In this document: in pieces, positions 35,542 through 38,648 of the stretch
How positions within the stretch are numbered: position 1 is the stretch's first letter
Layout: every line of letters begins with the position of its first letter
NCBI RefSeq assembly: GCF_002154695.1
Contig: NZ_MTAV01000123.1
Span: 1-38,648, forward strand
Reading direction: 5' to 3'
DNA from: Nostoc sp. T09
Lineage (GTDB): Bacteria; Cyanobacteriota; Cyanobacteriia; Cyanobacteriales; Nostocaceae
DNA: 38,648 bases
The notes under the pieces: generated by a model
The model's input: the letters and a program-made list of their open reading frames with translations, nothing else
What the model was told of the DNA's origin: nothing
Databases searched by the model: none
Position numbers and translations under genes: made by a program

Positions 35542-38034
35542 TTACTGCTTCTGACTTTTTTCCTGAAGGAGCGATCGCCAATCAGCAATTGCTTTTTCTG
35601 TCCACAACCAATTATTACTTAATTTATCTACCTGGAAATTTACAGGATCATCCTTGATCACCATTTGACGCAATTTGATCGCTTCACTTAGATATTGAGA
35701 TTGTTTATCACTTGGTTGATTATATGCAGATTTATACAATCCTAGAGCCAATCCAGCATAGGAAGTTAAAGCATCCTTAGGTATTGTAGTTGCTTTTATT
35801 GCTACTTGTGTAGTACTAGCAAGGTTTTGTTGTTTCAAAGCTAAGTTCAAAGCCTTAAACCAAGAGTCATTAGCTCGATTTAAATTTTCTTCGGCATAGT
35901 AAGCAAATCCCAAGGCATTATTGTACAAAAACGAATCTGGGTCAGCTTTTACAGCAGTTTCCCAGTAACGGCGAGCATCATCAATACTATATTTTTTATC
36001 TTTAATTTGGACGAACTGCCAAGCTAATCTTCCTTTAAAAAAGTTGACAGCGGGATTATTAGCTTGCTTTTGCGGCACAAGATTTAGGGCCGTTTGAGCA
36101 GGAGGAAGTGCGCCACGGTTAAGTAGTTCTTCCACAGCCTCAAGTCCACCCTGCAAGTCACCTTGGCTCAATTTTTCAGTAGCAGTAGCGGTGATAATTC
36201 CAGTTGCAGCCGTCTTTAAATCGATGGGAGGGGAATTTTCGGCTGTGAGTGACTGGGTAGGAATTGCTGGGATGTCAGGTAACTTTGAAACTTGGTGGTT
36301 TTGCCACCAACTCAAACCAACAAAAACTGCGATCGCACTTGCTCCCACCATACCGACAATCGGCCAGATTTTGCGTCGGTGGTTTCGTTTTGAAGAGACT
36401 TGTTGTGCATTTCCAAAAGAGGAATTATGCCAATCACCTGCAAAATTAGTAGAAGTTTCAGTTGATGCAACCGGATCTTCTTCCCAAAAGCTGGCTTCTT
36501 GATCCGGTACAGTCATCTCCTGAGAAACTTGTCTTGACCGCAGATTATTTTCATTTACTTGTTGCACAAGTTCTGCATTCATAGAAGATTGCTCAGAAGT
36601 TCCTGTTTGTTTATCTAGCTGGCGAAACAAATCTGAAACAAGAGCTGAATCTTCTGCGTAGGTTGGGTCATCATACTCAATTTCATCCACGAGATCGCCC
36701 CAAGTCTCTTCTCCTAGCCAGTCCAGCCCCGAAGATTCACGCGCTAAACCAGAAGGAATCATATCTTCTATAGCCGAAGGCATATCAGTTTCATCTGCCA
36801 CAGCAGAGTACATCGCAGTTTGATTTGACCTTGAGGCTGGATTGTACTCATTCAATAGTTCTGCACTTTCAGGAATTTCTGGGCTGAGAAATCCGTCAAA
36901 TTCTGGTTGCAGATAGAGAGTTGGTAACGCCCAGTACATCTGGTGCGAACCATAGGCAGAAATTAAACCCTGGCGCACCCGACTTACGCACAAATCCACA
37001 GGATAGCCCTGATTCAGGTTGCGGTAAAACAGTTGTGTGAGCGTCAGCGCTACTTCATCAGGAATTCGCTCTGACATGGCTAACACGCTCCTCAGTCCGC
37101 GTTTCACCAAGCTTTCTGTAAGGTTACGTTCTCCTGTTTCTTCAGTAGTATCAGAGTTAGCTCTGTATGCTCCCAAACAGGAGTTAAACACAGCCATTTG
37201 GATATTATTGTTGACGAGCAAGCCCGCCAGATCGTCCCCACTTAAGGTTTCTGTTAAGCCAGTTCTGCTACTGACCAGATAAATTTCACCGCCGTTGACA
37301 CCTAGGTTGCTATGACCGGAATAGTGCAGGACATGGTATCGTCCTTGCTCCAAAGCTTGCGTCAATTCTTCCCGCCCCGGTTGATCTAGCAACGTGAGTT
37401 CTATGTCTGGAACATAATTGCCACTTTCAGCAACTCGCGGTACATGACGGTTAAGCTCAGCTTGGAGTTTGATGGCCTCATGTTTGAGTAGATCGAGACG
37501 GGCTTGATCTGTAGGAGATGCTATCACCATCAATACTTTCACACCACCTTCTTCTAGGGGTTGTGGTATGTTTTTCGATGGCAAACGAGAAGCTGGCAAA
37601 ATTCCAGTTTGGTAGCGAGAAAAAGCGACATAAGGTCCGGTGGCTAAAGGACGATCCCCTGCGTGCATTACTTCCCAAGGCAGACGAGCTAACCTAGTGT
37701 CTTTTAGCCCTAAGCGTAAACGCAATACCTGTTGGTGGTTCTGGGCAATACCCTGTGCCGTAATCCAACTATCTCTGAGAGTGCCTTGAAACAGTGCATT
37801 ATAAAATTGCTGACCCAACGCCACTAGGTTTACAGAGTTCCTTGCAAACGCATCCCCTTGCAACACTGACTTCAACGGGTCATTCATCAGATGCCCCGCA
37901 GCCGCTAACCAATCAGCTACAGGCCAAGTCACCAGTTCTTCTGCCAATGGCACCCCAGGCGCGACTTGTTCCGTCCGCACCAAGTAGTCATTTTGCCCTA
38001 CTGGGGTTACGGAAATGTGAAATTCCTGGGTCAC
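35542..38034 (-). CDS. hetF: HetF, CHAT-domain caspase-like protease regulating heterocyst differentiation
   Basis: An 830-residue protein. The N-terminal half is a CHAT domain, with KVLMVIASPTDQARLDLLKH, the His in VLHYSGHSNLG (His241, the usual catalytic one) and the Cys in AVFNSCLGAY (Cys286), then ALPTLYLQPEF near 370. An acidic, Ser/Glu/Asp-rich linker follows, then one membrane helix (IWPIVGMVGASAIAVFVGLS), and a TPR-like C-terminal part (SFLYNNALGFAYYAEENLNR, KADPDSFLYNN). This is the layout of HetF, needed for heterocyst differentiation and for normal cell size, and its proteolytic dyad is intact. The start is GTG 38034 with GGAGAAG just upstream. The call is supported by the divergent NsiR1-like array upstream, as in Nostoc sp. 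PCC 7120. Another CHAT-TPR protein is possible but less likely. Confidence 0.85.
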   Translation of the reverse strand: MTQEFHISVTPVGQNDYLVRTEQVAPGVPLAEELVTWPVADWLAAAGHLMNDPLKSVLQGDAFARNSVNLVALGQQFYNALFQGTLRDSWITAQGIAQNHQQVLRLRLGLKDTRLARLPWEVMHAGDRPLATGPYVAFSRYQTGILPASRLPSKNIPQPLEEGGVKVLMVIASPTDQARLDLLKHEAIKLQAELNRHVPRVAESGNYVPDIELTLLDQPGREELTQALEQGRYHVLHYSGHSNLGVNGGEIYLVSSRTGLTETLSGDDLAGLLVNNNIQMAVFNSCLGAYRANSDTTEETGERNLTESLVKRGLRSVLAMSERIPDEVALTLTQLFYRNLNQGYPVDLCVSRVRQGLISAYGSHQMYWALPTLYLQPEFDGFLSPEIPESAELLNEYNPASRSNQTAMYSAVADETDMPSAIEDMIPSGLARESSGLDWLGEETWGDLVDEIEYDDPTYAEDSALVSDLFRQLDKQTGTSEQSSMNAELVQQVNENNLRSRQVSQEMTVPDQEASFWEEDPVASTETSTNFAGDWHNSSFGNAQQVSSKRNHRRKIWPIVGMVGASAIAVFVGLSWWQNHQVSKLPDIPAIPTQSLTAENSPPIDLKTAATGIITATATEKLSQGDLQGGLEAVEELLNRGALPPAQTALNLVPQKQANNPAVNFFKGRLAWQFVQIKDKKYSIDDARRYWETAVKADPDSFLYNNALGFAYYAEENLNRANDSWFKALNLALKQQNLASTTQVAIKATTIPKDALTSYAGLALGLYKSAYNQPSDKQSQYLSEAIKLRQMVIKDDPVNFQVDKLSNNWLWTEKAIADWRSLLQEKSQKQ

Positions 38035-38215
38035 AACTTCTCCTATTCGCCTCCTAAATCTGGATTGAAACGCGAAAGTTTCAAGTCGATTTTTCGCTTC
38101 TTCTGATACCTTAGATGCATCTTGCCACTGAATGTTTCTGAATTCTCCTTATTTTACGTTTTCAGCTTTTATAACTTTATCCGGATTGGTAGGTATTGGA
38201 CTAGAACACTTTATT
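38035..38215. other. hetF 5' region
   Basis: Leader and likely promoter region of hetF (minus strand), bounded by the first NsiR1-like unit. No clear box is visible except the TCCGGA at 38180-38185, which belongs to the array. A hetF transcript that starts further to the right would be antisense to the array. Confidence 0.5.
38180..38185 (+). promoter_or_regulatory. TCCGGA (DIF+-type) promoter element, copy 1
   Basis: TCCGGA starts 36 nt before the conserved GGTAGATGCACC of the first RNA copy, which places it at about -35. This motif is known from heterocyst-specific (DIF+) promoters of Nostoc, including NsiR1. Confidence 0.65.
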
Positions 38216-38277
38216 GGTAGATGCACCTTGATCTTCGACTCCCCTGGTTGGCGAATGCCTACTTGGGGATTTTTTTA
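38216..38277 (+). ncRNA. nsiR1: NsiR1-like small RNA, copy 1 (divergent)
   Basis: The RNA would begin near GGTAGATGCACC and end in the T-run 38270-38276, about 62 nt. Its body differs from copies 2 and 3 after the 12th base (CTTGATCTTCGACT instead of CCTGATAACTAACT). A stem of CCCCTGGTTGGC with GCCTACTTGGGG and a T-run make an intrinsic terminator on the plus strand. It lies 182 bp upstream of the hetF start and is divergent from it. The identification rests on size, position by hetF, TCCGGA promoter and repetition. Confidence 0.7.
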
Positions 38278-38392
38278 TGTTGGCAAATAGCAATAAACTC
38301 CAACGCAGTTATTCTCAAGCCAGGTATATGGTTCAACGCCCCTTCTTTGTGTCATTGCCAGCTAGAATCCACTAAATTTTGTTTGACACAGA

Positions 38393-38412
38393 ACTAAAAT
38401 ACACATTTTAGT
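38393..38412. promoter_or_regulatory. Palindrome upstream of sRNA copy 2
   Basis: ACTAAAAT-ACAC-ATTTTAGT is a perfect 8-bp inverted repeat that ends 7 bp before the TCCGGA of copy 2. Nothing like it precedes copy 1 or copy 3. It lies in a 116-bp stretch that separates copies 1 and 2 and could be an operator or a relic of an inserted sequence. Confidence 0.4.
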
Positions 38413-38419
38413 AAATTTA

Positions 38420-38425
38420 TCCGGA
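38420..38425 (+). promoter_or_regulatory. TCCGGA (DIF+-type) promoter element, copy 2
   Basis: Same motif at the same distance (36 nt) before the second RNA copy at 38456. Confidence 0.65.
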
Positions 38426-38455
38426 GCATGGGGGTTCACCTGAGAACAATTAAAT

Positions 38456-38516
38456 GGTAGATGCACCCTGATAACTAACTCCCCTGGTGGGCTAACGCCT
38501 ACTGGGGGCTTTTTTA
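38456..38516 (+). ncRNA. nsiR1: NsiR1-like small RNA, copy 2
   Basis: About 60 nt from GGTAGATGCACC to the T-run 38510-38515. The stem is CCCCTGGTGGGC with GCCTACTGGGGG, using G-U pairs. The first 30 or so bases are identical to copy 3. Confidence 0.75.
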
Positions 38517-38558
38517 TGCTTGGTAAACCAGAGCAAACTCAATACTTGTGGAATTTTA

Positions 38559-38564
38559 TCCGGA
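38559..38564 (+). promoter_or_regulatory. TCCGGA (DIF+-type) promoter element, copy 3
   Basis: Same motif 36 nt before the third RNA copy at 38595, 139 bp after the copy-2 element. Confidence 0.65.
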
Positions 38565-38594
38565 TGATGGTAGTTATCTAAAGAACAGTTAAAT

Positions 38595-38648
38595 GGTAGA
38601 TGCACCCTGATAACTAACTCCCCTAGTTGGCTCAAACCCACTGGGGGA
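38595..38648 (+). ncRNA. nsiR1: NsiR1-like small RNA, copy 3 (cut by the window end)
   Basis: The unit begins GGTAGATGCACC and reaches the right arm of its terminator (TCCCCTAGTTGG with CCCACTGGGGGA) at the last base of the window; the T-run would lie beyond. It shows that the tandem array continues past this window. Confidence 0.7.

Follow-up and report, generated by a model that had tools for sequence, protein, structure and literature searches.

The window analysed here, a 38,648-nt stretch of Nostoc sp. T09 DNA that makes up the complete contig C68, ends within an array of short tandem units located upstream of hetF and divergent from it (Table 1). The neighbouring gene scored as HetF above the curated cut-off, which bears out the originally predicted position of the array beside hetF and divergent from it. 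A repeat search of the window recovered one 113-nt repeat family with three copies (65% and 78% identity to the reference). As the original prediction had stated, every unit carries TCCGGA followed at a fixed distance by GGTAGATGCACC (36 nt from start to start, 30 nt between the two), which places the hexamer, the DIF1 element, at the -35 position in all three. The pattern TCCGGA-N28-32-GGTAGATGCACC was matched three times in the window, and 100 shuffles contained no match. Because TCCGGA by itself was found at chance level (4 occurrences against 4.07 expected), the signal is carried by the spacing.

Table 1. Position of hetF and of the array units in the window, and of the tag RNA found at gatB-argJ on another contig of the same genome.
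Feature	Position	Strand	Remarks
hetF	35542..38034	-	NCBIfam NF045509 CellDiv_HetF 1534.2 bits, cut-off 1200; Pfam CHAT domain
DIF1 box TCCGGA, unit 1	38180..38185	+	36 nt ahead of tag
NsiR1 unit 1	38215..38276	+	tag GGTAGATGCACC at 38216; RF02399 57.7 bits; hairpin z -3.06
DIF1 box TCCGGA, unit 2	38420..38425	+	spaced-pattern search
NsiR1 unit 2	38455..38516	+	tag at 38456; RF02399 72.6 bits; terminator hairpin 38481-38508
DIF1 box TCCGGA, unit 3	38559..38564	+	spaced-pattern search
NsiR1 unit 3	38594..38648	+	tag at 38595; RF02399 56.6 bits; 3' truncated by contig end
gatB-argJ tag RNA	G000:C252:1772-2087 (L038)		three tag units

GC-rich hairpins were found in all three units (z of -3.06, -2.68 and -1.77 for units 1, 2 and 3), and T-runs follow them in units 1 and 2; the contig ends directly after the hairpin of unit 3. 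The expectation of a hairpin plus T-run in each unit stood for the hairpin throughout and for the T-run in the first two units, the third being cut off. A simple terminator scan detected unit 2 only (1 found against 0.6 expected). Comparison with Rfam confirmed the proposed likeness to NsiR1, with all three units above the gathering score (39 bits) of the RF02399 covariance model, and size, promoter motif and divergent orientation likewise agree with published NsiR1 (PMC9045159, PMC8406250, PMC6133370, PMC3610870). We conclude that the three units are NsiR1 and that the window holds a further array of this already described small regulatory RNA.

At least one more copy had been expected beyond the window, and contig C256 indeed opens with five more NsiR1-like units (14-75, 146-206, 275-336, 410-471 and 543-609, scoring 70.4, 62, 34.8, 55.1 and 37.1 bits, respectively). 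Three of these exceed the gathering score of 39, and two of the eight units known in this genome fall under it. The units are followed by a 107-aa ORF that has no Pfam or NCBIfam match. In all five same-genus genomes compared, hetF, the array and a homologue of this ORF lie on one contig, with identities to the T09 sequences of 82.6-91.1% for hetF and 91.6-94.4% for the flanking ORF. The scan, which overlooks decayed units such as one of the five on C256, found 12, 13, 14, 12 and 12 units in these arrays, and in all five the first unit retains a distinct CTTGATCTTCGACTCC sequence. The ends of C68 and C256 show no overlap of 10 or more exact bases. From the C256 units, the flanking ORF and the one-contig layout in the five relatives, it is very likely that the T09 array comprises at least eight units and was split by the assembly. 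Promoters are degenerate at the C256 units starting at 275, 411 and 544. These distal units (275-336, 410-471 and 543-609 of C256, our locus L030) lack a good DIF1 box and one of them lacks a good tag, signs that the far end of the array may be decaying. Within the same family, RF02399 matches above the gathering score were present in 145 of 145 genomes.

The counterpart in Nostoc sp. PCC 7120 has 12 NsiR1 copies with individual DIF1 promoters and heterocyst-specific, HetR-dependent expression; there, NsiR1.1 is reported to inhibit hetF translation, and the identical central copies to repress alr3234 in trans, with footprints in vitro (PMC9045159). The T09 array resembles it in its tandem ∼60-nt units with their own DIF1 promoters, its divergence from hetF, and a first copy that is antisense to the hetF leader and divergent in sequence. 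It differs in lying on two contigs, in the number of units (at least 8, versus 12 in PCC 7120) and in the apparent decay of its distal units. The idea that a hetF transcript starting in the array would be antisense to the RNAs was already in print, as the PCC 7120 hetF transcript starts at -256, within nsiR1.2 (PMC8406250). In the same report, the hetF promoter-gfp signal changed little after the -10 box of nsiR1.1 was replaced or removed, which argues that the effect of NsiR1.1 is not exerted at transcription; how large it is in vivo is a matter of debate. Published PCC 7120 data also include leftward reads in the alr1199-alr1200 gap (PMC3141674), which may be the lgt-cobM RNA described below.

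In T09, 182 nt separate the start of NsiR1 copy 1 from the hetF start codon, and unit 1 would be antisense to the hetF leader if hetF transcription starts upstream of it. All six array copies tested are predicted to pair with this leader (-65.0 to -126.5 kcal/mol), and for each the best of 200 shuffles was weaker (-41.9 to -48.7 kcal/mol); the first 12 nt pair gap-free in copies 2 and 3 and in the first copy of C256. Genome G013, of 3.8 Mb and from the same family, carries HetR together with a CTGGT-type tag but gave no hetF match above the cut-off, just a distant one (3.8e-41).

The best explanation of the whole, to which we assign a probability of roughly 0.92, is that the window contains the hetF-proximal end of an NsiR1 array whose units work as in PCC 7120. 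Family membership, promoter motif and spacing, orientation, continuation in relatives and the potential to pair with the hetF leader come from the DNA studied here; on the strength of the literature, the transcription, cell type and targets of these units would be those of their PCC 7120 counterparts. Each unit would be its own small RNA gene, with a DIF1 promoter (TCCGGA near -35), an RNA of ∼60 nt beginning with the tag GGUAGAUGCACC(C)UGAU, and a terminator of the intrinsic type. On the PCC 7120 model, the HetR cascade, in which hetR and patS have DIF1 promoters that require HetZ, would activate the units in cells starting to become heterocysts. Copy 1, antisense to the hetF leader, would then block hetF translation, and the other copies, sharing its tag, would act on hetF, and on further mRNAs such as alr3234, in trans. 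Weighing against this account are the little-changed hetF promoter-gfp signal (PMC8406250), the two units under the gathering score and the degenerate distal promoters.

It is very improbable that the units act instead as DNA or as transcription roadblocks, titrating the DIF1 activator or colliding with hetF transcription, with the RNAs as by-products. Tandem units that each have a promoter and a terminator would suit such a role, as would the hetF start inside the PCC 7120 array (PMC8406250), but the 5′ tag stays constant (it is also the search key) across loci that have a DIF1 or HetR-type box and unrelated terminators, and the trans action on alr3234 with its in vitro footprints (PMC9045159) likewise tells against it.

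The tag also occurs elsewhere in the T09 genome. A solitary copy at C66:78573-78623 (L032:3074-3124, minus strand; 51.2 bits, above the gathering score) is not beside hetF; it lies between lgt (TIGR00544, 262.4 bits, cut-off 118.9) and cobM (TIGR01465, 340 bits, cut-off 259.65), antisense to the region upstream of cobM, with TCCGGA 35 nt before its tag. Further copies are on C26, C188 and C20 (35.8, 32.8 and 26.2 bits with RF02399), and C252 carries three tag units. The C188 and C20 copies have neither a DIF1 nor a HetR-type box and were left out of the network count. Both (L034:2963-3031 and L035:3656-3716) lie downstream of short Phage_integrase-family ORFs, and the tag might be a target for integration or be carried by a mobile element; Phage_integrase-related ORFs are also found near the tag at two Calothrix loci (L077, L124).

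hetF was considered as a common target of all tag RNAs and rejected, since the copies outside the array lack clear pairing to its leader: the lgt-cobM copy gave -47.6, only slightly better than its best shuffle (-42.9), and a gatB-argJ copy (-36.3) was no stronger than the best of its shuffles (-38.0). A search for targets by tag complement in the T09 genome (one mismatch to GGTAGATGCACC; 44 stretches, L310-L353) gave no convincing candidate among 45 classified sites, of which 16 were sense to an ORF, 19 antisense to an ORF and 10 intergenic, with a few of them near predicted starts. One tRNA-Leu gene (L333:1609-1692) contains TGGTAGACGCACC, a single letter off the NsiR1 tag; the resemblance is likely a coincidence and a source of chance matches in tag searches.

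To describe the distribution of the tag, we used 291 evenly drawn cyanobacterial genomes with a completeness of 90% or more, with HetR scored as PF03574 at E≤1e-10. The 17-mer GGTAGATGCACCCTGRT was present exactly in 60 genomes and HetR in 64 (59 with both, 5 with HetR only, 1 with the tag only and 226 with neither). The 15-nt 5′ tag RGTAGATGCACCCTG was present in 72, comprising 64 of 64 HetR-positive and 8 of 227 HetR-negative genomes, non-heterocystous lineages included; in one of these eight (G227) it lies in a stretch without a terminator. The reversed control pattern had no match in either scan. Relatedness inflates these genome counts, and tandem copies do not count as independent; over 38 families, the numbers with both, HetR only, tag only and neither were 14, 1, 1 and 22 for the 17-mer and 15, 0, 3 and 20 for the 15-mer. 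In the one genome with the 17-mer only (G344), HetR was not found even at E≤10, and the hetR gene may be missing from the assembly. The tag units of this genome (L203, L254) have DIF1-like boxes and one HetR-type box.

Among the named matches listed, the tag is held by Symploca, Moorena, Spirulina, Okeania, Phormidesmis and Kaiparowitsia, which are not known to form heterocysts. Tags adjacent to hetF occur in non-heterocystous records (L101, L104, L112, L156, L162, L183, L191, L192), and tags lie 154-230 nt upstream of a hetF match in G173, G181 and G255. Matches in metagenome-assembled genomes labelled Clostridia and Verrucomicrobia (L082, L088) lack a promoter box and appear to be chance hits. 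The tag thus appears to follow HetR, not heterocyst formation.

The lgt-cobM setting is shared widely. Across 121 loci with a neighbouring ORF (out of 117 named-contig and 6 T09 loci), the first opposite-strand neighbour was cobM in 24, lgt in 22 and both in 20, and hetF was a neighbour in 16. Both genes were found in Oscillatoria, Coleofasciculus, Elainella and two Leptolyngbya records (L142, L152, L164, L154, L174). Around exact 17-mer matches outside the Nostocaceae (family f1), lgt or cobM was present in 11 of 32 regions (f4, f6, f9, f10, f29), and it was present in all eight f1 regions, which were chosen for the CTGGT tag variant. The lgt-cobM layout with a DIF1 box thereby recurs across families, non-heterocystous ones included. 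Ten loci of relatives had no match to any other Rfam family at E≤1.

We examined the promoters of 304 unique tag units, each with 80 nt of upstream sequence. Because the units were found by their tag, its constancy is in part a selection effect; boxes and synteny did not enter into that search. DIF1 (TCCGGA, at most one mismatch) was found at -34 to -38 in 275 units, 184 of them exact, and nine shifted controls gave no exact match and 0-23 with one mismatch. By group, DIF1 was present in 79 of 80 named non-heterocystous, 96 of 99 heterocystous, 17 of 17 remaining cyanobacterial and 0 of 2 non-cyanobacterial units. A second element, the HetR-type box GGGGTNNNACCCC, precedes 18 of the 29 units lacking DIF1, which leaves 11 of 304 with neither box (L257-L260, which are HetR-negative, and L082, L088, L080, L124, L166, L212 and L261; L080 has N letters upstream of its tag). 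After 30 loci were added, the box was present in 46 (≤1 mismatch) or 49 (≤2) of 69 DIF1-less units, and in 0 (≤1) or 1 (≤2) of 277 units with DIF1; at the same two thresholds, shuffles gave 0.0 and 0.115 per set and windows taken at random from these loci 0.95% and 1.25%. At L258-L260 (f5, three HetR-negative genomes), a tag RNA with a terminator lacks both boxes, and its stretch shows neither gatB nor argJ; this RNA is possibly a form older than the link to HetR.

One tag RNA preceded by the HetR-type box lies between gatB and argJ (in T09, gatB scored 605.1 bits with TIGR00133, cut-off 314.8, and argJ 548.5 bits with TIGR00120, cut-off 298). This RNA is often tandem (L098, L239, L263, L277, L292-L295, L304, L305, L360-L389) and, in the copies scored, stays under 39 bits with RF02399 (L098 37.2, L239 34, L231 32.9; T09 22.2 and 15.5); it is related to NsiR1 by its tag and is not filed as NsiR1. 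Outside f1, a box with at most two mismatches was present in 15 of 15 HetR-positive gatB-argJ loci (at most one in 13), versus 0 of 10 f3 genomes that lack HetR and have the RNA next to gatB or argJ (best 3-5 mismatches), a contrast close to a single evolutionary event because the f3 genomes are one family. The RNA is present in 35 of 40 f1 genomes (HetR was scored in part of these 40), and over 30 f1 loci the best box had 0, 1, 2 and 3 mismatches in 6, 11, 10 and 3, respectively (27 of 30 with at most two). In T09, one of the three C252 copies has GGGGTATTGCCCC at -40, and the box is degenerate in the other two.

The HetR site of the hetP promoter is GAGGGGTCTAACCCCTC, with GGGnnnnnCCC as its structural need (PMC4192349); GGGGTNNNACCCC fits both and has the same layout. 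The hetP site drives a protein gene, and the gatB-argJ box is a putative HetR site. We think it rather unlikely that GGGGTNNNACCCC is instead part of the gatB 3′ end, or the site of another regulator distributed like HetR. The box does lie downstream of gatB, its assignment to HetR is putative, and the HetR-negative comparison loci all come from f3 and so approach one event. However, no T-run follows the inverted repeat, in almost every locus read the box precedes the RNA at -38 to -42, and similar boxes stand before tag RNAs on stretches with neither gatB nor argJ (L268, L270, L271, L273, L275, L276, L279, L280, L297-L303); the fit to the hetP site (PMC4192349) and the missing box in all ten HetR-negative loci also argue for a HetR operator.

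One explanation for the co-occurrence of tag and HetR is shared ancestry in filamentous lineages, with no functional tie. The genomes are related and the counts by family are far smaller than those by genome, but 293 of the 304 tag units come with a DIF1 or HetR-type box, and where HetR is missing, so is the HetR-type box; we therefore consider shared ancestry by itself unlikely. Its relatives instead point to NsiR1 as a branch of a more ancient, HetR-linked family of RNAs. We somewhat favour the view that NsiR1 is a late, hetF-linked amplification of a family of ∼50-60-nt RNAs with one 5′ tag, which would serve as an RNA output of the HetR network across filamentous cyanobacteria, whether or not they make heterocysts. 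Wiring would be through DIF1 on the hetF side, at lgt-cobM and at other loci, and direct, through a HetR-type operator, at gatB-argJ and other loci.

No report of this wider family was found in the open-access literature, although it is partly anticipated by an NsiR1-like RNA in Limnospira and a DIF1 prediction in Leptolyngbya. RNA162 of Limnospira PCC 8005, a 57-nt RNA said in a single report to resemble NsiR1, comes from a species without heterocysts (PMC8400943), and a DIF1 promoter has been predicted at patX-hetR of the non-heterocystous Leptolyngbya BL0902 (PMC11298460). The DIF1 genes hetR, patS and patX (PMC7377430, PMC11298460) have TCCGGA at -35, as the units do, but as described there they are protein-coding and, unlike the NsiR1 units, have no shared RNA tag.

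As regards the window itself, the feature is one more NsiR1 array in a known set, and the array, its DIF1 promoters and the antisense layout are published for PCC 7120. The wider result bears on the role of HetR in cyanobacteria without heterocysts, for which the functions of hetR and patX have been described as a mystery (PMC11298460). If the proposed family is real, its shared tag would allow the DIF1 and HetR-operator inputs to meet at the same target mRNAs. If the tag RNAs are a conserved HetR output in such cyanobacteria, existing hetR mutants of non-heterocystous strains such as Leptolyngbya BL0902 would be direct test systems, and NsiR1 in heterocysts would represent the reuse of an older circuit.
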